NCBI RefSeq assembly: GCF_006738645.1
Contig: NZ_AP019700.1
Coordinates: 632,001-696,000 of the forward strand
DNA length: 64,000 bases
Source of the DNA: Stella humosa
Lineage (GTDB): Bacteria > Pseudomonadota > Alphaproteobacteria > ATCC43930 > Allostellaceae
Reading direction: 5' to 3'
The position numbers were made by a program, and so were the translations under genes. Within the stretch, counting starts at the first letter, position 1. Every line of letters starts with the position of its first letter. Of the stretch, positions 38,719 through 60,502 are shown piece after piece. The notes beneath the pieces are model-generated. The model ran no database searches. It saw only the letters and a list, made by a program, of their open reading frames with translations, and had not been told where the DNA came from.

Positions 38719-39231
38719 CTGAACAACGAATTCGAGCGGCATCTCGGCTTTCTGCTGAACGATGTCGCCCGACTGTTGCGCAAAAGGTTCGATCGGCGGG
38801 CGCGTGCCCTCGGTCTCAGCCGCGCCCAATGGTCGGTCCTGGCCCAACTGTCGCGCGTCGAGGGCATCCACCAGGGCGGCTTGGCCGACATCCTGGAAGT
38901 GGAGCCGATCACGCTTGCCCGCATGGTCGACCGGCTGGAGGCCGCTGGCTTCGTCGAGCGCCGGCCCGACCCGACCGACCGGCGGGTGAAGCGCCTGCAC
39001 CTGCTGCCCCCGGCCGCCCCGGTGCTGGAGCAGATGCGCAGCCTGGGCGTGGCCACCCGCGAGGAGGCGCTGGCCGGCATCGCCGCCGACGACCGCGAGC
39101 GCCTGGTCGACCTGCTGTTGGCGATGAAGACCAACATGCTGGGCCTGGAAACGCCGTGCGACGGCGACTGGGCCGAGGTCGAGGCTCCCGACACGCCCGA
39201 CGGCGGGCAGGGCGGGGGCCAGCATGCCTGA
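38719..39231 (+). CDS. MarR family transcriptional regulator, probable CTG start
   Basis: A winged-helix regulator. The N-terminal helices LGFLLNDVARLLRKRFDRRA, the recognition region LADILEVEPITLARMVDRLE and the wing RRPDPTDRRVKRL are typical. No ATG, GTG or TTG precedes the first helix in frame: the frame opens at 38668 and the first standard codon is TTG 38776, inside helix 1. A strong GGGAGG (38708-38713) is 5 nt before CTG 38719, giving 170 residues with the complete dimerisation helix, so CTG is proposed. The gene overlaps emrA by 8 nt and probably senses efflux substrates. Confidence 0.82.
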   Translation: MNNEFERHLGFLLNDVARLLRKRFDRRARALGLSRAQWSVLAQLSRVEGIHQGGLADILEVEPITLARMVDRLEAAGFVERRPDPTDRRVKRLHLLPPAAPVLEQMRSLGVATREEALAGIAADDRERLVDLLLAMKTNMLGLETPCDGDWAEVEAPDTPDGGQGGGQHA

Positions 39232-40378
39232 GGGGTCGAACGTCGAGGTCTCGCGCGCCGAGCTCGCGACGGCCGGGCGGTCCCGGCGGCGCTGGCGGCG
39301 CCTGCTGCTGCTGGTCCTGGTGCCGCTTCTGGTGGTCGCCGTCGCCTTCTATTTCTATCTGTCGGGGGGGCGCTACGTCGTCACCGACAATGCCTATGTG
39401 CGCGCCGACAAGGTCACGATCTCGACCGACGTGTCGGGCATGGTGCAGGCGGTCCTGGTGGCAGAGAACCAGCGCGTCGCCGCCGGCGACATGCTGTTCC
39501 GCATCGACCCCGAGCCCTTCGCGCTGGCGGAGGCCGCAGCCCAGGCGCAACTCGGCACGGTCCTGGCCGAGCTCTCGACCCTGAAGGCCAACTATCGCCA
39601 GCGCGTCGAGGAGATCCGCCTGGCCGAGGCCGACGTCGCCTACCAGGATCGCGAACTGCGCCGCCAGGCGGAGCTGGGCCAGCGCGGCGTCGCCGCCGGC
39701 ACCGTGCTGGACCAGGCGCGCATCGCCTATGCCCGCGCCCGCCAGCGGGCGGCCGCCGCCCGCGAGGAGGCGGGTGCCGTCCTGGCCTCGCTCGGCGGCA
39801 CCCTCGACGCCGACCCCGCCCAGCATCCCCGCGCGCGCCATGCCCAGGCCGAACTGGACCGCGCGCGCCGCGAGCGCCGCCGGACCGAGGTGCGGGCGCC
39901 CGCCGCCGGCATCCTGGTCAATGTCGGCCAGTTGCAGCCGGGCGAGTATCTGGAGGCCGGCAAGCCCGCCTTCACCCTGGTCCTGGTCGACCGGCTGTGG
40001 ATCGACGCCAACCCCAAGGAAACCGACCTGACCCATGTGGTGATCGGCAACCCGGCCGACGTCACCGTCGACACCTATCCCGGCCGCACCTGGAAGGGGC
40101 GGGTCGAGAGCGTGAGCCCGGCCAGCGGTGCGGAGTTCGCGATCCTGCCGCCGCAGAATGCCAGCGGCAACTGGATCAAGGTGGTGCAGCGCATCCCCAT
40201 GCGGGTCGCGGTCGAGCAGCCGGCGGACGGGCCGATGCTGCGCACCGGCATGAGCGTGGTGGTGACGGTCGACACCGGGCGCGAGCGCACGCTGGCATCG
40301 GTCTGGGCCGACCTGCGGCGGCTGGTCGGGCTCGATCCCGGCCAGCATGCGGGTGCGGCGCACCGGCCCCAGGGATGA
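39224..40378 (+). CDS. EmrA/HlyD-type membrane fusion protein
   Basis: A 384-residue periplasmic adaptor anchored by one N-terminal membrane helix (RLLLLVLVPLLVVAVAFYFY, about 27-47). The lipoyl half VTDNAYVRADKVTISTDVSG, a coiled-coil hairpin about 90-205 rich in Ala/Glu/Arg, the second lipoyl half RRTEVRAPAAGILVNVGQLQ and the beta-barrel follow. It would join the EmrB-type pump to an outer-membrane channel; no tolC-like gene is in the window. It overlaps marR and emrB by 8 and 4 nt, so it is one coupled operon. Confidence 0.92.
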   Translation: MPEGSNVEVSRAELATAGRSRRRWRRLLLLVLVPLLVVAVAFYFYLSGGRYVVTDNAYVRADKVTISTDVSGMVQAVLVAENQRVAAGDMLFRIDPEPFALAEAAAQAQLGTVLAELSTLKANYRQRVEEIRLAEADVAYQDRELRRQAELGQRGVAAGTVLDQARIAYARARQRAAAAREEAGAVLASLGGTLDADPAQHPRARHAQAELDRARRERRRTEVRAPAAGILVNVGQLQPGEYLEAGKPAFTLVLVDRLWIDANPKETDLTHVVIGNPADVTVDTYPGRTWKGRVESVSPASGAEFAILPPQNASGNWIKVVQRIPMRVAVEQPADGPMLRTGMSVVVTVDTGRERTLASVWADLRRLVGLDPGQHAGAAHRPQG

Positions 40379-41896: not shown

Positions 41897-42367
41897 TCAA
41901 CCCGCGACGGGTGCCGCCCGGCTGACGATCATGTGGATCTCGGCGATGGCCAGGCCGAACTTGCCGATCTTCACCTGCACGGTGGCGACGTTGGCCGTCT
42001 GCGGCTGCAACTCCTCCTCGCAGGCCAGCCGCCACACCGTCTCGCCGACCGGCACGTCGGTCTGGTAGCTCCAGCGCAGGCCGCCATCGACCCAGGTGGC
42101 CTCGGCCGTGCCGACGATGTCGGCGGCGGTGCCGGAATAGCCGTTCGTCGTCGGGCGGATGCGCCACAGCCGGCGCTCGGGCGGCGAGCCCTCGGCGGTC
42201 CAGGTCTGGTCCAGCGTCAGCACCTGGCCGTCCCAGTCGCCGCGCAGGACGGCCGTCATCCGCCGCTCGCCGCCGCCGCGATGATCGACCAGATGGCCCC
42301 AGCCATGCAGCAGGCCGGCATAGAAGGCCTCCAGGCGGAACGGCGTCGCTTCCCCGGGACCGTTCAT
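41897..42367 (-). CDS. DUF3833-like protein
   Basis: A 156-residue protein rich in beta strands. LRGDWDGQVLTLDQTWTAEG, RLWRIRPTTNGYSGTAAD and VPVGETVWRLACEEELQ match the DUF3833 pattern. No signal or lipobox is visible with the ATG 42367 start, although homologues are often lipoproteins; the frame is open upstream but merges with the MFS pseudogene. It ends 7 nt from the emrB stop, tail to tail. Confidence 0.7.
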   Translation of the reverse strand: MNGPGEATPFRLEAFYAGLLHGWGHLVDHRGGGERRMTAVLRGDWDGQVLTLDQTWTAEGSPPERRLWRIRPTTNGYSGTAADIVGTAEATWVDGGLRWSYQTDVPVGETVWRLACEEELQPQTANVATVQVKIGKFGLAIAEIHMIVSRAAPVAG

Positions 42368-42384
42368 GCCTGGCCCTTCCTTCC

Positions 42385-42682
42385 CTATGGCGAGCGCCGC
42401 GCCGGCTGCATGAAAAGGAGCGCCACGAAGGACAGCGCCGTCAGGCCGCCCGACAGCGTCGGCGCCCAGACCGGGCCGGCGCGGTCCAGCACGATGCCGG
42501 ACAGCAGCGGCGCCCCGCCTTGCAGGATGCGCGCGGGGGCCGCGATCAGCCCCGTCCGCAAGCCATAGCCGGCCGGCCCGAACAAGGCCAGCGGCAGCGT
42601 GCCGCGCGATCGTCAGCAGGCCGTTGCCGGCTCCGTGCAGGATCGCGAACGCCATCGCCGCCGGCGGGGCGGCTGGCACCAA
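42385..42682 (-). pseudogene. remnant of an MFS transporter gene (C-terminal fragment, frameshifted)
   Basis: Two frames together encode the end of an MFS protein: AMAFAILHGAGNGLLTIAR in one, then LPLALFGPAGYGLRTGLIAA and SGIVLDRAGPVWAPTLSGG in another, with the stop at 42385. The change of frame falls at GCGCGG near 42610, best explained by loss of a GC dinucleotide. The N-terminal ten or so helices are missing. It is a decayed gene next to DUF3833. Confidence 0.75.
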
Positions 42683-42866
42683 TAGGCGAAATATTTCCAG
42701 GTGTTTTTTCCTGGGTCAGGGCGCGAGCGCGATAACCGCCGCTTTTGGTTCTATGTTTCCATAAAGTTCGAAATGGTGGATCGCGGTGAAGCTGTCCTGG
42801 TTCCAGGAAATTCCGCCATCGCGATAGGGCGTGATAGGCTCCGCTTCTGACTGAGCGGGAGGGACG

Positions 42867-43253
42867 ATGGCGCGCGCCGCGGCCAAGGCGAAGAAGGGGC
42901 GCATCCTCTTCATCGACGACGAGCCGGACGTCGTCGAACCGTTGCTGGCGATGGTGCGCGCCCTCGGGTTCCAGGCCAGCATGCTGACCGATGGGCGGCA
43001 GTTCGAGCAGGAATTGAAACGCTTCAAGCCGACGCACGTCGTGGTCGATCTGGTCATGCCACAAAGCGACGGAATCGACGTGCTTCTGGCGCTGTCACGA
43101 CTGACGGAGCGGCCGCGGATCATCGTCATGACCGGCTATCACTGGGGCGTCATGGAGTCGGCCCGGATCCTCGCGGAAACCCACGCCCTCAACGACATCG
43201 CCTGGCTACAGAAGCCGGTCGATCTCGACCGGTTTGAATCCATGCTGGCGTGA
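42867..43253 (+). CDS. single-domain response regulator (CheY-like receiver)
   Basis: A 128-residue receiver domain without output. The acidic pair is D17-D18, the phosphorylation site D61 in VVVDLVMPQSDG, the switch Thr T89 in VMTG, and Lys K116 in LQKPVD. GGGAGGGACG precedes ATG 42867. The basic N-terminus ARAAAKAKKGR is unusual but short. The nearest kinase is the hybrid kinase at 46457-47953, across the repeat-protein gene, which makes a link possible but unproven. The 184-nt upstream gap has only the palindrome TCCTGG-TT-CCAGGA (42795-42808). Confidence 0.88.
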   Translation: MARAAAKAKKGRILFIDDEPDVVEPLLAMVRALGFQASMLTDGRQFEQELKRFKPTHVVVDLVMPQSDGIDVLLALSRLTERPRIIVMTGYHWGVMESARILAETHALNDIAWLQKPVDLDRFESMLA

Positions 43254-43314
43254 ATTCCGGTGCGACTTATTCAAACGATAACCAAAAGCTAAATGGAACT
43301 TTTGCGCGCTCCGC

Positions 43315-43329
43315 ATAATGTATCATTAT
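43315..43329. promoter_or_regulatory. inverted repeat in the AT-rich leader of the repeat-protein gene
   Basis: ATAATG-TAT-CATTAT is a perfect 6-bp inverted repeat with a 3-bp centre, 19 nt before the start at 43349, in an AT-rich stretch (43260-43330) unlike the surrounding DNA. It could be an operator or overlap a -10 box. Confidence 0.45.
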
Positions 43330-43348
43330 GGTGTAGCGCGGGGCGAGC

Positions 43349-46300
43349 ATGGCCATTCTACCTGGTGCCGTCGTCGGAGAGTTGCTGGAGCGTCTGAACG
43401 CCGAACGTCGGCGGGTGGTGCTGGACGGCTTCGAGGCCAATGCCGGGGAATGGTCGCAGCAATGGTCCGGCCGAGCGTCGACCAGCCGTGCGTCGACCTC
43501 GGGCCGGGGCCGCAGCCGACCCGGCGCCGCCCAGGCCGACGCCGACGTGCTGGAGCGCATTGCCGACGACCTGGCGACGGAGATTCCGGGGCAGCCGACC
43601 GCGGCCGAGATCGTCATCCAGCTAACCATGGCGATCCGCCGCGACCCGGCCCAGGCCGCCGTCATCGTCGACGCCATGCTGACCGATCATCCGCGGATGG
43701 CCGTCGTCATCGTGGCGACCGCGCTGCGCATGTGCCCCGGCCTGCGCAAGGAGATCCTGGCCCAGGCCCGGCGGCACAAGCCTTTCTCCAAGCATCCCTT
43801 CATCCTCGGCCTGCTGCTGGCCTTCGTGGCCCATGCCCTGGCCCAGAACGCGGCCGAGGCGGCAGAGACGTTCGAGGGCGCCGAGACGCCGTCCGAGGTG
43901 CTGGCGGCGCTCGGCCGTCACTATTCGACCCCGCGGCCGAACGGCGACGGCGGCCATGGCGGCCGCGGCGAGCGCGCCATGGGCTTTGGCCCCTTCGTGG
44001 CGCCGGCCTTCGTCGCCACGGTGCTGGCGGCGGGCGACGCGTGGTCGCGCCCGCGCCGCAACGACGAGGACCAGGGCGAGCAAGCGGCCGGCGAAGGCCG
44101 ACGCACCGTGCGTGCCCAAGAAGACGAGGAAGGGTCCCGCCATCAGTCGGGTGCCGACAGCCTCGCCGGCGCGGACGAGGACGGCCTGCCGTCCCGCCGC
44201 CTGTCGCTGCCGGACGAGACCGCCGCGGCGCGTGCCGAAGCGGCCACCCCGATCTTCCAGATTACGCCCGATGAAATGCCGGCTGCTGCTGCAGCACCGC
44301 TATCGGCGCGCGCCATGCTGGCCGCGCCGCCGCCAGCGGCAGGCCAGGCCGATGGGGCAGCGATGTCGGCCACCACGACGGCGCCCGCTCAGGCGACGGC
44401 AGGCGAGGCCGCGGCAGGCGAGACGCCGGGGGGCGAGGCTGCTCCGGCCACGGAGATGGATGCGATCGCCGCCAGCCTGTTCGACCACGTCCTGGCCCGC
44501 CTCGCCGAGACCGGCGACGATCCGCTGGCGGCGGCCACGGTTCTCTCGGAACTGGCCGAGGAACTGTCGAGCCTGCCCGCCGACCGGTTGGCCGGCGATG
44601 CGGCCGATGCGCCGTCGATCGAGGGGGATGCGCCGACGCTGATAGGGGTCGCCTCGGTGGAGGTTGGTCCGGCCGCCGCCGCGGGGGTCCTGGTGTCAGA
44701 CGGGAGCCTCGCTGCCGAAGCGGAGGTCGCCGTCGCCGCTCCCGCGATCGTGCACGCGCCGGTCGCCATGTCGGCGGTGGCCGAGACCGGGAATGCCGTA
44801 TCGGCCGTGGTCGAGGCGGCCGTCGTCCTGCTGGCGAACGATACGCTGGCTGGCGGCTCGGTGGCGGTCGACCTGACGGTGGACGATATTGTCGAACTGG
44901 ATGCCGATGGCGCAATCGCCGTCGGTGACGGTGGGGTGCAGGCGGATCTGTCGACAGGGGTCACGCTGACGGACTCGGTCTCGGCCGAGGTGGCGGTCGG
45001 GCTGGACCTGCTGGCCGATGACACGCTCGTCGGCGCCGCCTTGACGGCGGACCTGGAGGTCGACGGCATCGGCAGCATCGCGGCGGACGTCGAGGTCCAG
45101 GCACTGGCCGGCGATAGCCTGCTGGCGGCCGACCTGTCGACCAGCCTTCAGGTGACGGACTCGGTTTCGGCCGAGGTGACGGTCGGATTGGATTTCCTGG
45201 CCGGCGATGTACTGGCCGACGTCGACCTGTCCACCGATCTTTCCATCGACGGCTTGGGCGCGGTCGGGCTTGACGGCGCGGTCCAGCTTCTGGGTGAGGA
45301 CGCGGCCGTGGCGGGCGATCTCGGGCTGGACCTGACCGTCGGCGATTCGATCGCGGTCGGCGCGGATGCCGAGCTGTCGCTGCTGGGTGAAGATGCGCTG
45401 GCCAGCGCTGCCGTCGCCGCGACCGTCGGCATCGACGGAATTGCCGAATTGCAGGTCGAAGCCGAAATCGAACTCCTGGGCGATGCCGGTGCCGCTGCCA
45501 TGCTGGGCGCGGACGCCAGCCTGACGGGCGTTGCGACCGTCGAGGCCGATGCGGGGCTGGTGCTGCTGGGCGAGGATGCCGTGGCCGCGGCCGAGGCCGC
45601 GGTGGCCGTCACCGTTGCCGACCTCGTGGAGGTCGTTGTTGGTGGCGACGTTGCCATCCTGGGCGACGGCGGCGCGGTCGCGCTGGAGGCAGTGGCCGAG
45701 ATTGCAGTGACGGACTCGGTCTCCGTTGAAACCGAGGCAGCGCTGGTGCTGTTCGCCGACGACACGGTGGCCGAGGTCGAGGTCGCGGCCGACCTGGTGA
45801 TCGCGCCGGTGGCGGAGGTTGCCGCCGCGGGCGATGCCACGCTGCTGGGTGATGAGGGCGCGGTTGCCGTCGAGACGATAGTGACCGTCGAACTGCCGGA
45901 CACGGTGGCGGCCGAGGTCGAAACGGGGCTGGCCTTGCTTGCCGACGATACGCTGGCCGATCTCGACCTGTCGTCGACGGTGACGGTGGCCGATTCCGTG
46001 ACCGCCGCCCTCGACGTCGGGCTCTCCGCTCCGGCCGGCGGCGAACCCGTCGCGGTGGAGGTCGCGGCGGCAATCACCGTGCCGGAGACGGTCGCCACCG
46101 AGGTGGCCCTGGTCCTGCCTGGGCCGGATACGATTGCCGAGGCGGCGGTCGTGGTCGAGACGCCGGTGGCCGAAGTCGCGGCCGAGGTCGTGCTGACGCC
46201 GGATACGCCGCCAACCATCGAACTGGCGATCGACCTCGACCCGCTGTTGTCGATCGACATCTCGGTCAATGGCGGCGGCGATGGCGAGGAAGACAGCGCG

Positions 46301-46468
46301 GCGGTGGTCATCGAGGTGCCGGTCGTGACCGAGGTCGTGCAGGCGGCGGATTCCCTGCTGGCCGCCATCATCCCCGACGAGCCCGACCCGCCGCCGGCGC
46401 CGCCGCCCTTGCCGATCGTGGCGCCGGTGCAGTCGGTGCTGTTCGGGTTGGGTGGCCTATTCGGCTGA
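43349..46468 (+). CDS. 1039-residue acidic protein with 31-residue beta-type repeats
   Basis: No named family is recognised. Residues 1-40 are a short helical start; 60-170 form a helical region with hydrophobic stretches (AAEIVIQLTMAIRRDPAQAA, PRMAVVIVATALRM, PFILGLLLAFVAHALA); 190-420 are low-complexity, Ala/Asp/Glu/Pro-rich. From about 490 to 953 run some fifteen 31-residue repeats, each with a motif like TDSVSAEV, then GLDLLADDTL. After R413 there is no Lys or Arg, so the C-terminal half is strongly acidic. The end is Pro-rich (DPPPAPPPLPI) and then VLFGLGGLFG. No signal peptide is evident; export, if any, would be by another route. Possibly a cell-surface or matrix protein, as acidic beta-repeat proteins often are. 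ATG 43349. Confidence 0.8.
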   Translation: MAILPGAVVGELLERLNAERRRVVLDGFEANAGEWSQQWSGRASTSRASTSGRGRSRPGAAQADADVLERIADDLATEIPGQPTAAEIVIQLTMAIRRDPAQAAVIVDAMLTDHPRMAVVIVATALRMCPGLRKEILAQARRHKPFSKHPFILGLLLAFVAHALAQNAAEAAETFEGAETPSEVLAALGRHYSTPRPNGDGGHGGRGERAMGFGPFVAPAFVATVLAAGDAWSRPRRNDEDQGEQAAGEGRRTVRAQEDEEGSRHQSGADSLAGADEDGLPSRRLSLPDETAAARAEAATPIFQITPDEMPAAAAAPLSARAMLAAPPPAAGQADGAAMSATTTAPAQATAGEAAAGETPGGEAAPATEMDAIAASLFDHVLARLAETGDDPLAAATVLSELAEELSSLPADRLAGDAADAPSIEGDAPTLIGVASVEVGPAAAAGVLVSDGSLAAEAEVAVAAPAIVHAPVAMSAVAETGNAVSAVVEAAVVLLANDTLAGGSVAVDLTVDDIVELDADGAIAVGDGGVQADLSTGVTLTDSVSAEVAVGLDLLADDTLVGAALTADLEVDGIGSIAADVEVQALAGDSLLAADLSTSLQVTDSVSAEVTVGLDFLAGDVLADVDLSTDLSIDGLGAVGLDGAVQLLGEDAAVAGDLGLDLTVGDSIAVGADAELSLLGEDALASAAVAATVGIDGIAELQVEAEIELLGDAGAAAMLGADASLTGVATVEADAGLVLLGEDAVAAAEAAVAVTVADLVEVVVGGDVAILGDGGAVALEAVAEIAVTDSVSVETEAALVLFADDTVAEVEVAADLVIAPVAEVAAAGDATLLGDEGAVAVETIVTVELPDTVAAEVETGLALLADDTLADLDLSSTVTVADSVTAALDVGLSAPAGGEPVAVEVAAAITVPETVATEVALVLPGPDTIAEAAVVVETPVAEVAAEVVLTPDTPPTIELAIDLDPLLSIDISVNGGGDGEEDSAAVVIEVPVVTEVVQAADSLLAAIIPDEPDPPPAPPPLPIVAPVQSVLFGLGGLFG
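44816..46207 (+). repeat. about fifteen tandem 93-bp (31-codon) coding repeats
   Basis: The unit reads, in protein, a hydrophobic strand of alternating residues, D-S-V (or D-G-I), A-E-V, then L-x-L-L-A/G-D/E-D-x-L. DNA identity between copies is only partial (for example GACGGACTCGGT recurs at 44970, 45156 and 45711), so the array is old or under protein-level selection rather than freshly expanded. Confidence 0.8.
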
Positions 46469-47953
46469 CCCCGGGGGCGATCGGCTTCCGGTGCGGCCCA
46501 GCAACTGCGCCACGACCGACAGGAAGCGCTCGTCGTCGAAGGGCTTGGCGATCACCGGCCGGCCGGCCAGCAGGAAGAACTGCTCCAGTTCCGGGTTGGC
46601 GATGTCGCCGGTCATGAAGAGGATGCGGGCCGCGCTCTCCGGGTCGTCGCGTTCCAGCCGCTGGAACAGGGTGGCACCATCCATCCCGGCCATGTGGATG
46701 TCGCTGATCAGCAGGTCGTAGCGCCGCCGGTCGATCCGCCGCAGCGCGTCGACCCCGTCGCCCGCCAGGTCGGCGGCATGGCCTTCCCGGCGCAGCAGCG
46801 ACTGGATGTAGCGCGCGAGCGCCTGGTCGTCGTCGATCACCAGGATCGCCGCGCCGCCGGCCGGCCGCGGCATGGCCGCCGCGGCTGCCGCCGCCTGGTC
46901 GCCGGCCGAAACCGGCAGGCGAACGAGGAATTCCGCCCCGCCCTCGGGCCGGTTACTGACGGTGATGCTGCCGCCCAGTTCCTTCACCTGGGTGACGCAG
47001 AGCGATAGGCCGAGGCCGGTTCCCATGCCCTCGGGCTTGGTCGTGAAGAAGGGCTGGAAGATCCGCTTCATGATCGCGGGCGGAATGCCGGGCCCGTTGT
47101 CGGCCACGCGCAGCTCCAGCATGCGGGCATCGGCGTCGAAGCCGAGCGCGACCGACAGCCGGCGCGGCTGGGGCACCTCGGCCAGGGCATCGCAGGCGTT
47201 GGTCACCAGGTTGACGACGATCTGGCCCAGGCCCGTGGTGTCGCCCGCGACGAGCGGCAGGTCGGCCGGCAGGTCGGTCGCCAGTTCCACCCCGGCCCGT
47301 TCCAGCCGGCCGCGCACCAGCTCGACGGCGCGGCCTGTCACATCCGCCATGGCGACCGGCGTGCGCCGGATCGGGCGCCGCCTGGCCAGGTCGAGCAGGT
47401 TGGTGACGATGCGGGCCGACTGCCGGGCGGCCTCGACCACCCGGTCGAGCCGCCCGCCATGGGACTGGTTGCGGATCAGCCGGCGCAGCAGCTGGGTCTG
47501 CGCCAGGATCGTCGAGAGCTGGTTGTTCAGCTCATGGACGATCGAGGCCAATAGCTGGCCGAGCGCCGCCGCCCGCTCGGCCGCCGCGTCGATGGCGGCC
47601 TCGTCGCGGCGCGCCGACAGCAACAGGACATGGCCGCGCCCCCGGCGCACGGCACGGGCCGTCACCACCAGGGCCGGCCCGTCCGGCCCGGTCGCTCCCG
47701 GCGCCAGCCGCACGTCGACCGTGCTGCCGTCGGGCGGTGCTGCCGCCAGCCGCGTCACCGCCTCGTCGGGCCAGTGGGCGGGCTCGGCCGACTGGCCGCC
47801 GAACAGGGCGGTCCAGGCCGGGTTGCAGCGCAGGCGGCGCAGCCCCCCGTCGGTCACCGCTTGCGCCAAGGGCGAGCGCTCGAACGCAAGTTCCCCCAGG
47901 CCGGGTGGACGGCGCCGGGGCTGGTCCGTGTCGGGCGCTGCAGGCTCTGGCAT
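46457..47953 (-). CDS. hybrid sensor histidine kinase with C-terminal receiver
   Basis: A 498-residue soluble kinase. A PAS-like N-terminal sensor (about 20-115, PLAQAVTDGGLRRLRCNPAW) precedes HisKA with the phospho-acceptor His140 in SIVHELNNQLSTI. HATPase_c has the N box NLVTNACDAL, DNGPGIPP and GMGTGLGLSL. The receiver follows with IDDDQAL, phospho-Asp in LISDIHMAGMDG and Lys in IAKPFDD. No membrane helix. ATG 47953 with GGAG upstream is chosen over a longer reading to 48064. The 3' ends of this gene and the repeat-protein gene overlap by 12 nt. HELNNQLS is the form seen in NtrB/PAS-type kinases. Confidence 0.9.
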   Translation of the reverse strand: MPEPAAPDTDQPRRRPPGLGELAFERSPLAQAVTDGGLRRLRCNPAWTALFGGQSAEPAHWPDEAVTRLAAAPPDGSTVDVRLAPGATGPDGPALVVTARAVRRGRGHVLLLSARRDEAAIDAAAERAAALGQLLASIVHELNNQLSTILAQTQLLRRLIRNQSHGGRLDRVVEAARQSARIVTNLLDLARRRPIRRTPVAMADVTGRAVELVRGRLERAGVELATDLPADLPLVAGDTTGLGQIVVNLVTNACDALAEVPQPRRLSVALGFDADARMLELRVADNGPGIPPAIMKRIFQPFFTTKPEGMGTGLGLSLCVTQVKELGGSITVSNRPEGGAEFLVRLPVSAGDQAAAAAAAMPRPAGGAAILVIDDDQALARYIQSLLRREGHAADLAGDGVDALRRIDRRRYDLLISDIHMAGMDGATLFQRLERDDPESAARILFMTGDIANPELEQFFLLAGRPVIAKPFDDERFLSVVAQLLGRTGSRSPPGSAE

Positions 47954-48151
47954 CCGGGCTCCGCCCGCATCGTTGCGGGGATCATTCTCGCCCGCCGTGA
48001 TGCCCGTCGTCGACGGCATTCGGCACACCGCGCGCGCGAGACCGATCGGCCGATTGGGACGCAATGGTTGTCAGCGTCGGAATGCCAATGTTATCCAAGG
48101 ACCCAGGCGCCGGAGAGCGTCCGGACAATACTCGAAATTTGGGAGAACCCG

Positions 48152-49102
48152 ATGACCCTTCATACCAAGTCGATTCTGGCTGCGCTCGCAGTCTCCGCCG
48201 CGTGCGCCGCACCCGCCGCTGCCGCGGACATCAAGCTGATGACCGGTCCCCAGGGCGGGGTCTGGGTGCCGCTGGGCGGCCAGCTCAAGGACATGTGGGA
48301 AAAGGCCATTCCCGGCCTGTCGGTGCAGTCGCTGCCGGGCGCCGGCATCGCCAACATGCGCGGCATCGAGGAATCGAAGACCGAGATCGGCTTCGGCAAT
48401 TCCATCTCCACCGTCGATGCGCTGGCCGGCAACGCGCCCTTCAACAAGCCCCACAACACCATCTGCAACATCGCCACGCTCTACCCGCAATACTACCAGC
48501 TCGTCACGCCGACCGCTGCCGGCATCAAGTCGGTCAAGGACCTGAAGGGCAAGAGCATCACCACCCAGCCGCGCGGCAACACGGGCGAGCTGATCACCGC
48601 CCAGTTGCTGAAGGTGCATGGGCTGGCCTACAGCGACGTGAAGGTCAGCTTCGTGTCCTACACGGACTCGGTGACGCAGATGCAGGACGGCCACGCGGTC
48701 GCCTTCGGCCTCGGCACCGCCATCCCCGCCGGGTCGATCATGGACCTGGCCTCGGCCCGCGACATCACCCTGATGGACCTGTCCGACAGCCTGGAGGGCA
48801 TGAAGAAGCTCAATCCCGGCTACACGCTGGTGACCGTGCCCAAGGGTACCTATGCCAAGCAGGACCGGGACGTCCAGGTCATCGGCTATGCCACGCACGT
48901 CGCGGCCGCCTGCAAGCTGCCGGCCGATCAGGTCTACACCATGACCAAGACGATGGCGGCCAACGTGCCGTCGATGGCGGCCGTCTACAAGGGCATCACC
49001 GGGCTGACCCCCAAGGCGATGGCCGAGGATATCGGCGTTCCCTTCCACCCCGGCGCGGCAAAATTCTATGCCGAATCCGGCATTACGGTGAAGACGCGCT
49101 GA
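48152..49102 (+). CDS. TAXI family TRAP transporter substrate-binding protein
   Basis: A 316-residue periplasmic binding protein with a Sec signal (LHTKSILAALAVSAACAAPA to AAAAD). TAXI landmarks are KLMTGPQGGVWVPLGGQLKD, VQSLPGAGIANMRGIE and KDLKGKSITTQPRGNTGEL. GGGAGAACCCG leads into ATG 48152. The fused permease gene follows 61 nt downstream. The ligand class (glutamate/dicarboxylate or other) cannot be read from the motifs. Confidence 0.93.
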   Translation: MTLHTKSILAALAVSAACAAPAAAADIKLMTGPQGGVWVPLGGQLKDMWEKAIPGLSVQSLPGAGIANMRGIEESKTEIGFGNSISTVDALAGNAPFNKPHNTICNIATLYPQYYQLVTPTAAGIKSVKDLKGKSITTQPRGNTGELITAQLLKVHGLAYSDVKVSFVSYTDSVTQMQDGHAVAFGLGTAIPAGSIMDLASARDITLMDLSDSLEGMKKLNPGYTLVTVPKGTYAKQDRDVQVIGYATHVAAACKLPADQVYTMTKTMAANVPSMAAVYKGITGLTPKAMAEDIGVPFHPGAAKFYAESGITVKTR

Positions 49103-49163
49103 GCGTCGGGCACCGGGTATAGAAGCAGCAGGCATAGACAAGCAGCAGTCGGGGTCGCGCGCG

Positions 49164-51035
49164 ATGACCATGGATCTCAGTCACGGCGGCATCCTCCGCC
49201 TCGTCGGCATCGTCATCGGCGTTCTGATGTCGCTCTACCACATGTGGGCGATCGCCTTCGGCACGCCGGAGGCCGTGTATTTCCGCGGGACCCACCTGCT
49301 GTTCGCCCTGACGCTCGTCTTCCTGTTCTACGACCGGTCGGCCAAGCGGGCCGGCCGGCCGCCGGATGCCATCGACTACGGCATGCTGGTCCTGTCGGCG
49401 GCACCGATCCTCTACCTGTTCTTCAACTACGACTACATCGTCAACCGCATCTACTATATCGACGACCTGTCGACCGCCGACATGGTGCTGGGTGCGATCA
49501 TGGTGGTGGCCGTCATCGAGGGCACCCGGCGGGCGCTGGGCTGGGCCCTGCCGATAACGGCCATCGTCTTCCTGGTCTATGGGCTGTTCATCGCCAAGCT
49601 CGAGCCGATGCGGCTGATGGACCAGCTCTTCATGACGACCGAGGGCATCTTCGGGATTCCGCTCTCGGTGTCGGCCGCTTATGTGCTGATCTTCGTGCTC
49701 TTCGGCAGCTTCATGGAGCGCACCGGCACGGGCCAGCTCTTCATGGACTTCGCCATGTCGCTGACCGGCCATACGGCGGGCGGGCCGGGCAAGGTTTCCG
49801 TCGTCAGCTCCAGCCTGTTCGGCACCATCTCGGGCAGTGCGGTCGCCAACGTCATGGTCGACGGGCCGATCGCCATTCCCCTGATGAAGCGCACGGGTTT
49901 TCCCCCGCACTTCGCTGCGGGGGTGGAGGCGACGGCGTCGACGGGCGGCCAGATCATGCCGCCGATCATGGGGGCGGCTGCCTTCGTGATGGCGGAGTTC
50001 CTGGCGGTCGGCTACGGCCAGGTCATCATCTGGGCGCTGATTCCATCCATCCTCTATTACGTCGCCTGCTTCGGGGCGGTGCATTTCGAGGCCAAGCGGC
50101 GCGGCCTGGTCGGCCTGCCGCGGTCGGAACTGCCGGTCTTCTCGCGCGTCATGGCCGAGCGCGGCCACCTGTTCCTGCCGGTCGTTGCCATCCTGGCCGT
50201 CATGTATTCCGGCTACAGCGCGCCGATGGCGGCCCTGGTGGGGACCCTGCTGTGCTTCCCCGTGGCGGCGCTGCGGCCGTCGACGCGCGGCAACGTCACC
50301 TGGAAGAACGTCATGGAGGCGATGGCGGACGGGGCGCGCAACGCCGTCACCGTGGCGCTCGCCTGTGCCTGTGCCGGCATCATCATCGGCGTCGTCATGC
50401 TGTCGGGCCTGGGCATCGTCTTCACCCAGCTCGTGGTCGGGCTGGCGCAGGACTGGCTGCTGGTGGCGCTGTTCCTGACCATGGCGGCCGGCATCGTGCT
50501 CGGCATGGGCATGCCGACGACGCCGGCCTACATCGTGATGACGGCCCTGCTCGTGCCGGCCATCATCAAGCTGGGCGTCATCCCTCCGGCCGCCCACATG
50601 TTCGCGCTCTATTTCGCCGTGCTGTCGGCCATCACCCCGCCGGTGGCGCTGGCCGTCTTCGCGGCCGCCGGCATCGCCAAGTCGGACATCTGGAAAAGCG
50701 GCCTGGCGGCAGTGAAGATCGGTGCCGCCGGCTTCATCGTGCCCTTCATGTTCGTGTACGAGCCGGCGCTGCTGATGATCGGCGATAGCTGGCTCTGGAT
50801 CGTCTGGCGCTTCGTCTGTGCCGTAGCCGGCATCCTGCTCTTCGCCGGCGGCCTGCACGGCTATTTCCTGACCTGGGCCTCGCTCTGGCAGCGCGTGCTG
50901 CTGGCCGCGGGGGGCTTCGCGCTGGTCTTCCCCAGCGTCTGGTCGGACGTCACCGGCGCGGTGCTGGCCGGGGTCGTGCTGGCAGCCCAGTGGCTGGCCC
51001 GCCAGCGGACCCCGGCCACCGCCGGAGCCCGCTGA
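49164..51035 (+). CDS. TRAP transporter fused 4TM/12TM permease (TAXI type)
   Basis: A 623-residue inner-membrane protein with the DctQ-like four-helix part (about 10-120) fused to a DctM-like part. Typical blocks are VVSSSLFGTISGSAVANVM, TGGQIMPPIMGAAAFVMAEF and GMGMPTTPAYIVMTALLVPA, and the C-terminal helices end near 615. It works with the TAXI binding protein upstream. ATG 49164 or 49170; no strong ribosome site for either. It is convergent with the alpha/beta hydrolase gene, with 7 nt between stops. Confidence 0.93.
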   Translation: MTMDLSHGGILRLVGIVIGVLMSLYHMWAIAFGTPEAVYFRGTHLLFALTLVFLFYDRSAKRAGRPPDAIDYGMLVLSAAPILYLFFNYDYIVNRIYYIDDLSTADMVLGAIMVVAVIEGTRRALGWALPITAIVFLVYGLFIAKLEPMRLMDQLFMTTEGIFGIPLSVSAAYVLIFVLFGSFMERTGTGQLFMDFAMSLTGHTAGGPGKVSVVSSSLFGTISGSAVANVMVDGPIAIPLMKRTGFPPHFAAGVEATASTGGQIMPPIMGAAAFVMAEFLAVGYGQVIIWALIPSILYYVACFGAVHFEAKRRGLVGLPRSELPVFSRVMAERGHLFLPVVAILAVMYSGYSAPMAALVGTLLCFPVAALRPSTRGNVTWKNVMEAMADGARNAVTVALACACAGIIIGVVMLSGLGIVFTQLVVGLAQDWLLVALFLTMAAGIVLGMGMPTTPAYIVMTALLVPAIIKLGVIPPAAHMFALYFAVLSAITPPVALAVFAAAGIAKSDIWKSGLAAVKIGAAGFIVPFMFVYEPALLMIGDSWLWIVWRFVCAVAGILLFAGGLHGYFLTWASLWQRVLLAAGGFALVFPSVWSDVTGAVLAGVVLAAQWLARQRTPATAGAR

Positions 51036-59899: not shown

Positions 59900-60298
59900 T
59901 CAGACGGCCGGGCGACCGCGATAGGGGTCGACCGGCGAAGAGGCCGGCAGGGCCGGATTGCCGGTGCCGCCCAGCGACTCGATGCGGCCGGTCAGCCGGC
60001 CGCCATCGGCGACCTCCAGGCGGCCGTAGCGGATTTCGCCCTCGATATTGCCGGTCTCATGGACGATCAGGCGCTGGGTGGCGCGGATCTCGCCCTCGAA
60101 GCGGCCGCGGACCTCCGCCGTCTCGCACTCGATGGTGCCCTCGACACGGCCGTTGGCGTCGAGGACGAAGGACTTGCAGGTGGTCTGCAGGCGCGCCTTC
60201 CCGGCGACATAGATCCGGCTACAGCGTTCGATCGTTGCGGCGATCTCCACGCCTTCGCCGACCGAAAGGTAGCTGTCGTTCGTCGGTACCGCAGTCAC
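59900..60298 (-). CDS. bactofilin family cytoskeletal protein
   Basis: A 132-residue polymer-forming cytoskeletal protein. The beta-helix core with short repeats (GEGVEIAATIERCSRIYVAG, ANGRVEGTIECETAEVRGRF, ETGNIEGEIRYGRLEVADGG) is flanked by short unstructured ends with Pro, as in bactofilins. GTG 60298 is chosen because GAGGAG lies 9 nt upstream; the reading to 60361 (ATG) adds 21 residues and may also be used. Bactofilins localise cell-wall or shape factors. Confidence 0.88.
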   Translation of the reverse strand: MTAVPTNDSYLSVGEGVEIAATIERCSRIYVAGKARLQTTCKSFVLDANGRVEGTIECETAEVRGRFEGEIRATQRLIVHETGNIEGEIRYGRLEVADGGRLTGRIESLGGTGNPALPASSPVDPYRGRPAV

Positions 60299-60502
60299 TC
60301 GATCCCGCTCCTCTTGCACGTCCTGGGATGTGGATTTGCCGGGGCAGCGAACCCACCCCACCAGCCGAAGGTATCAGAACGGCTCGCGCGCGGGGAAATT
60401 TCCCGCAGCGACGGCGGCGATTCCGAGGGGCGGACCCGGCTCGGTCGCCGCCATGCCAAGGCGGCGGGCCCCGCCCGATCGGGATCCCGCCGAATGAAAG
60501 CG

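Follow-up and report, generated by a model that had tools for sequence, protein, structure and literature searches.

Introduction

The described systems closest to the protein reported here are bactofilins, the surface-layer (S-layer) protein RsaA, the SufB/SufD core and the curli subunit CsgA. Bactofilins (PF04519, e.g. BacA of Asticcacaulis) have a beta-helical core, with rungs of short strands, flanked by variable termini. RsaA of Caulobacter crescentus is secreted by the type I route and has a helical N-terminal domain, an acidic beta-rich C-terminal part and no Sec signal. The SufB/SufD core is a two-sheet beta-helix; curli, such as CsgA of Pontibacter (8c50), are stacked solenoids with shorter repeats and a Sec signal. 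Here a 1039-residue acidic repeat protein is described, encoded at 43349..46468 (+) in a 64,000-nucleotide window of the Stella humosa ATCC 43930 genome (NZ_AP019700.1, positions 632,001 to 696,000; present genus name Allostella). All coordinates are those of the window. The gene had been pointed out in an earlier note made from the DNA letters alone.

Stella cells are flat, six-pronged stars, and according to the Stella genome paper it is not known how complex bacterial shapes are generated (PMC6687932). A review describes the Stella points as de novo differentiated regions requiring additional elements (PMC5502672). In published work bactofilins function in stalks and in shaping the cell (PMC12364344, PMC10945521). 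Since they act in Asticcacaulis stalk formation (PMC12364344), true bactofilins are by analogy the conventional candidates for the Stella star arms. No work on Stella shape proteins was found among the titles and abstract openings of the matches listed. We propose, with a probability of roughly 40%, that the acidic repeat protein is a Stella-specific, anchored polyanionic beta-rod serving as a structural scaffold or spacer. Sequence comparison supports this through modular conservation, in which a conserved N-terminal domain and a conserved tail enclose fast-evolving repeats.

A gene found so far in one genus

The open reading frame (ORF) starts with ATG, and its coordinates include the stop codon. 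The S. humosa protein (P0001) was matched in 4 of 31 genomes (its own and 30 relatives), every one in the genus Stella: S. humosa, S. vacuolata ATCC 43931, Stella sp. ATCC 35155 and the metagenome-assembled genome (MAG) SJ646. The orthologues are named P0002, P0003 (ATCC 35155) and P0004 (MAG), and their residue numbers count translated open frames, including 6-23 residues ahead of the ATG. Searches with a profile of the N-terminal domain gave matches in 4 of the order's 43 genomes and in 2 of the 385 of the class. All of these belong to Stella, the class-wide search being of limited sensitivity with at most nine candidates per genome scored among those listed. The repeat profile returned only the query itself from the 385 class genomes (1/385) and missed the ATCC 35155 orthologue, no genome having more than 16 scored candidates among those listed. 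Two peptide patterns were run against a wider contig collection, possibly without the S. humosa genome itself, and gave three loci (two named Stella and one MAG). A pattern for the C-terminal tail had a single site in the S. humosa genome, in this gene. On the searches made so far, the protein appears specific to Stella and its closest relatives.

The N-terminal domain (residues 1-186; 43349..43906, +) is 59-73% identical to the orthologues. The ratio of nonsynonymous to synonymous substitution (dN/dS) was 0.30, 0.28 and 0.43 against the three, values indicative of purifying selection. The ORF is a real gene, because four orthologues were found and the N-terminal domain has dN/dS of 0.28-0.43. 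The C-terminal part is 32-37% identical where alignable (dN 0.63-0.71, dS 0.96-1.12), with dS close to saturation and an uncertain alignment. The repeats turn over quickly, keeping an acidic, beta-amphipathic, Lys/Arg-poor character while the repeat unit itself is not kept.

The earlier note recognised no family, and the searches agree. P0001 had no match in Pfam or NCBIfam (E<=1) or in PHROGs (E<=0.1), and sequence searches of the PDB with P0001 and the N-domain profile gave none at E<=10. Family scans of the orthologues produced chance-level matches only, each in one of four members (fvmX1, E 0.0057, 16.3 bits against a cut-off of 27; C_LFY_FLO, 0.19; K1-lyase_Rider, 0.38). No Rfam family was matched at gathering scores in 42500-48500.

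Composition and repeats

The last Lys or Arg is R413, as the note had stated, and one His (H469) lies beyond it. By composition count, the Lys/Arg-free acidic region therefore spans residues 414-1039 (44588..46465, +). This run of 626 residues far exceeds the second longest, of 88, in a set of 122 window ORFs of at least 200 residues that also contains spurious ORFs. Net charge is about -105 over residues 481-1039, the repeat region consists of 21% Ala, 16% Val and 12% Leu, and there is one Cys. The final Lys or Arg is residue 420 of 785 in P0002 and 391 of 872 in P0003. Complete exclusion of both residues is kept in three of the four orthologues and nearly so in that of the MAG.

A profile fit placed sixteen 31-residue units at residues 494-987 (44828..46309, +), so that the fifteen repeats counted previously were right to within one. 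The last two units are weak (unit 15 scores 9.7), and the first two overlap by 2 residues. The fit totalled 362 against 273 for the best of 20 shuffles, for which the fit used fewer offsets and iterations (11/15) than for the real sequence (31/40). Identity autocorrelation in S. humosa gave z of 6.3-6.8 at 31 residues and 9.6-10.5 at 62, and hydropathy autocorrelation was 0.42/0.45. The dominant hydropathy period of 2.06 residues is that of beta alternation, and Fourier-transform peaks fell at 2.02-2.14 residues in all four orthologues. Long periods were 31/62 in P0002 and 30/60/90 in P0003 (z 21.6, 19.9, 16.1). Tandem Repeats Finder reported no array of 93-base units within the ORF, so the repeats have diverged at the DNA level; the two rows that it did give there, 43470-43498 and 45251-45283, are short and hold under two copies each.

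Eleven repeats were registered by hand. Asp and Glu were concentrated at columns 4, 5, 11, 15, 20, 27 and 29, occurring in 9, 9, 8 and 7 of the 11 repeats at columns 4, 5, 11 and 27. They were never found in 15 of the 31 columns, the hydrophobic columns 1, 2, 10, 12, 16, 18 and 30 among them. Acid-hydrophobic pairs were over-represented at odd spacings, with z of 1.7, 7.1, 2.5 and 2.0 at distances 1, 3, 5 and 7 in S. humosa and of 2.0-5.3 at distances 1 and 3 in the other three orthologues.

Predicted structure of the repeats

AlphaFold2 (AF2) was run at full length on four sequences and separately on the ATCC 35155 repeats as a single sequence. The full-length model has strand-turn-strand structure across residues 454-975, most strands being 7-14 residues long and two of 28. 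Within the repeats the predicted local distance difference test (pLDDT) score was 52-64 by blocks at residues 531-800 and 35-55 elsewhere. The near-perfect 30-residue repeats of ATCC 35155 were predicted as a beta-solenoid with pLDDT 85 and a predicted TM score (pTM) of 0.85.

VIA-align was used as a second look at the match list of Foldseek itself. On the repeats of the weak full-length model it ranked highest the hemopexin-binding protein 4rt6 (Z 10.7, 268 residues aligned, 5.0 Å) and RsaA (Z 10.0, 279 aligned, 5.9 Å), both Z values lying under the level that the tool advises for trusting repeat matches. The ATCC 35155 repeat model aligned at Z 18-21 over 210-241 residues to SufBCD complexes and models, 4dn7 and CsgA. 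Its predicted geometry is closest to 5awg_F, a beta-helical SufBCD chain (Z 20.6, 237 aligned, 3.3 Å). The protein nevertheless differs from SufB/SufD in having no Pfam or NCBIfam match (E<=1), and the Foldseek E-values were 4.5 (5awg_F) and 0.29 (5awg_A); the geometry common to the models says nothing of function. CsgA shares a stacked solenoid (8c50, Z 18.8, 210 aligned) but differs in the root mean square deviation of 8.5 Å and in the curlin Pfam family, to which the acidic repeat protein has no match (E<=1). Folds like those of TamB, LptA and VPS13, and the bactofilin fold, were absent from the Foldseek and VIA lists, an absence that excludes nothing. A lipid-groove (TamB-like) reading, prompted by the amphipathic strands, was set aside for lack of evidence.

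Prediction of the repeats was confident for ATCC 35155 and weak for the S. humosa protein itself. The solenoid-like beta-repeat region suggested by the note is supported by AF2 and VIA-align as a likely, if unproven, fold. We consider it rather probable that the repeats fold as a solenoid, and highly probable that they have beta structure of some kind. The typical artefact of such predictions, acids stacked inside the solenoid, is not expected for the S. humosa repeats, because acids and hydrophobics occupy opposite parities along the sequence.

N-terminal half, linker and tail

A helical N-terminus had been noted and was predicted by AF2, with helices including residues 6-26, 60-74, 85-98, 100-113, 115-128, 130-141 and 151-174. 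The pLDDT was 59-79 at residues 81-150; it was below 50 in residues 1-80 and again from residue 158. The protein has no visible signal peptide, again in line with the first reading: no hydrophobic stretch was seen at the N-terminus, and the first window with hydropathy over 1.6 is residues 151-169. This segment, FILGLLLAFVAHALAQNAA (43799..43855, +), is a possible membrane or buried helix. It is preceded by HKPFS.HP, invariant in the four orthologues, and its mean hydropathy is 1.76 in S. humosa and 1.62-2.05 over all four species, values marginal for a membrane helix.

Alignment, hydropathy and AF2 delimit a variable linker of Ala, Pro and charged residues at 190-413 (43916..44587, +). A second borderline hydrophobic stretch, at linker residues 210-228, is over the threshold in three of the four orthologues. 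A helical hairpin predicted by AF2 ahead of the repeats (residues 369-407; 44453..44569, +; block pLDDT 34-49) may cap the solenoid, and similar helix-like stretches were seen by eye in P0002 and P0003. The Pro-rich end and hydrophobic tail described earlier were confirmed, and the tail is conserved in the orthologues. Sequence and alignment place a Pro-rich neck at residues 1009-1028 (46373..46432, +), followed by the tail SVLFGLGGLFG at 1029-1039 (46433..46465, +). Eight of the 11 tail positions are invariant in the four orthologues (S1029, V1030, L1031 and L1034-F1038); P0003 has a 4-residue insertion.

Genomic context

The flanking genes are as first described. Upstream lies a single-domain response-regulator receiver of 128 residues (42867..43253, +), the next gene upstream in 4/4 genomes, with 64-73% identity within the genus and 30-34% to the best other-genus matches among those listed. 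Downstream, a 535-residue hybrid histidine kinase (HisKA-HATPase-receiver; 46457..48064, -) overlaps the acidic repeat gene convergently by 12 nt. The convergent arrangement recurs in S. vacuolata and in the MAG (kinase partial at a contig end), which makes three of the four genomes. In ATCC 35155 a urtA-like gene and urtABC-like cluster, labelled by eye, follow the repeat gene instead. The kinase orthologue there (66% identity) lies at 3.706 Mb, ~2.7 Mb from the repeat gene as the contig is numbered; it carries a flag for one TGA, seen by eye to be at its end. The kinase-bactofilin distance is ~14 kb in ATCC 35155 and ~12 kb in S. humosa. The kinase and nearby bactofilin thus sit ~2.7 Mb from the receiver and repeat gene, so the neighbourhood has been broken up by a rearrangement in ATCC 35155 (L007 10820-15000 and L036), with kinase and bactofilin on one side and receiver and repeat protein on the other.

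The AT-rich leader with an inverted repeat, reported in the note, was located and is conserved. The dyad CATAATG-TAT-CATTATG (43314..43330), a probable operator or core promoter, ends 18 nt before the ATG, and an ATAA-N7-TTAT dyad lies ~20 nt ahead of the ATG in 4/4 genomes. A strict pattern, built from the three complete Stella genomes and not fitting the MAG site, occurred once in each of the three, always before the acidic repeat gene, and the reversed control gave 0. A DNA site is more likely than an RNA hairpin, since only four pairs are conserved. A scan for promoters and terminators found no promoter-like site and one minus-strand terminator-like site against 0.8 expected, which was not used.

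Gene order was kept in 4/4 genomes as major facilitator superfamily (MFS), MarR-like, HlyD-type, MFS, DUF3833, receiver and acidic repeat gene; the MFS and MarR-like labels were given by eye and the other names by domain scan where scanned. The DUF3833 protein (41897-42682, -) is divergent from the receiver. On the other side lies a tripartite ATP-independent periplasmic (TRAP) transporter (47630-51035, +), which we take to be of the type named TAXI, with an NMT1_3 binding protein and a DctM permease. The NMT1_3 match covers residues 204-484 of the 490-residue ORF listed at 47630, whose true start is probably further downstream. A bactofilin is encoded at 59900-60361 (-), ~13 kb downstream of the repeat gene (PF04519 match 59981-60262, E 4.3e-18). 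The three complete Stella genomes have two PF04519 matches apiece, and the MAG has three.

Discussion

The observations of the earlier note were confirmed and its interpretation was supported in part: a beta-repeat region of no known family stood, a surface, matrix or Ca-binding role is possible, and an output role in signalling was weakly supported. In the anchored rod that we propose, the N-terminal domain would form a helical array tying the rod to the inner membrane or to a conserved partner, and the linker would give it reach. The repeats are modelled as a two-strand-per-turn beta-solenoid with 31 residues per turn, hydrophobics pointing inward and Asp and Glu outward and in the turns. 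Fifteen or so turns at 4.8 Å each would make a rigid polyanionic rod of ~7 nm. The rod would be a charged spacer, or a scaffold that stacks on itself, and its length could vary freely. It would perhaps be repelled from an anionic membrane and hence stand off from it. The hydrophobic tail, following the Pro-rich neck, may dock on a second partner or cap the rod. Expression is probably controlled at the gene's own promoter via the conserved dyad, and the receiver encoded upstream probably works together with the protein. The likeness to bactofilins would lie in the manner of working only. The repeat region is ~5x the 98 positions of the Pfam model and free of Lys and Arg, its 31-residue unit is unlike their short-stranded rungs, and PF04519 was matched neither by P0001 at E<=1 nor by the orthologues at E<=10, in searches whose HMMER filters drop most weak matches.

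Several points weigh against this proposal. Genus-restricted proteins of unknown function are not rare in bacteria. The C-terminal part of P0004 contains two Lys/Arg residues (the last at 621), its longest run free of them is 151, and no long period stands out (best z 3.2 at 44). The full-length AF2 model is weak (mean pLDDT 45.8, pTM 0.38). Foldseek gave no match at E<=0.001 among 17 for the full model or among 37 for the ATCC 35155 repeat model. Of the 47 chains aligned to the latter, 37 reach Z 8 and are mostly unrelated beta-helices, so the match is one of generic shape. Stacked acidic columns would repel one another unless neutralised. The idea of a membrane anchor is weak, because segment 151-169 is borderline and eight windows of the Lys/Arg-free part of the S. 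humosa protein pass the same hydropathy threshold, up to 1.86. When random sequences were given as perfect repeats, AF2 returned beta-solenoids of high pLDDT in 32 of 78 cases (PMC11795689). The pLDDT of 85 on near-perfect repeats therefore counts for little.

An exported surface or S-layer-like protein, comparable to RsaA or a two-partner-secretion exoprotein, is possible though on the unlikely side, and the evidence does not separate it from the rod. Its helical N-terminal domain would bind the envelope, and the acidic beta region would bind Ca2+ and assemble outside the cell. The acidic, beta-rich, Lys/Arg-free composition with a single Cys and without an N-terminal hydrophobic signal would suit such a protein, as would the VIA matches to RsaA and hemopexin-binding protein, made on the repeat region of the weak model. 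A gene for an HlyD-family adaptor also lies nearby (39224-40378); with the MFS-like ORF that follows, however, it looks by eye like an EmrAB-type efflux pair. The RTX nonapeptide GGxGxD had no match in the four orthologues, and no ATP-binding cassette (ABC) exporter was present among the six neighbouring ORFs scanned, the rest of the genome not having been searched for exporters. The protein differs from RsaA in both respects and in having no sequence match in the PDB set. An HxuA/HMW1-like two-partner-secretion (TPS) exoprotein would have an N-terminal Sec signal and a TPS domain; the acidic repeat protein matches no Pfam family at E<=1 and has no N-terminal hydrophobic stretch. Its Arg-rich, strongly conserved first half with an internal hydrophobic segment looks cytosolic or membrane-bound and not like that of an exported protein.

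It is unlikely that the protein is an effector or scaffold of a two-component pathway, with the receiver binding the N-terminal domain and switching rod assembly in response to the hybrid kinase. The receivers form a genus-specific orthologue set adjoining the repeat gene in 4/4 genomes, and the kinase is a convergent neighbour in 3/4. Against this, the kinase orthologue of ATCC 35155, whose frame by eye stays open almost to the end, is unlinked, and the receiver has no output domain able to read the dyad; without a DNA-binding part it is not the dyad's reader. The suggestion that the protein is the output of the adjacent signalling genes has weak support from the adjacency of the receiver and loses ground with the kinase.

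A disordered polyanion, in which unfolded repeats act as an acidic entropic brush or bind cations or basic proteins, is improbable. The low pLDDT of the S. humosa protein, its fast sequence turnover and the AF2 bias to solenoids (PMC11795689) would favour it. Strict alternation, high Val, Leu and Ala and the placing of acids off the hydrophobic columns are instead typical of folded beta repeats. A polyanionic beta-rod acting as a cytoskeletal element, cytoplasmic or membrane-anchored, that contributes to making or maintaining the flat six-pointed star, with its assembly timed by the receiver, is very doubtful; the case for a role in star shape is weak and consists of the genus restriction and the look of the protein. 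Long spurious ORFs do occur in GC-rich genomes and a 407-residue antisense ORF overlaps the coding sequence, but a spurious or frame-shifted ORF is refuted by conservation: four orthologues share the ATG, the tail and an open frame between the two, changes are in excess at third positions, dN/dS is below 1 and the periodicity is in frame at the protein level.

The acidic repeat protein is plausibly an unusual, unclassified beta-repeat structural protein whose fold is predicted. Its chemistry is extreme, with 626 residues free of Lys and Arg and this property kept while the sequence turns over. Found only in the genus, structural in appearance and provided with its own conserved dyad and a fixed receiver neighbour, the gene offers a concrete target for deletion and localisation. 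The protein is a candidate for a lineage-specific structural part of star-shaped cells.

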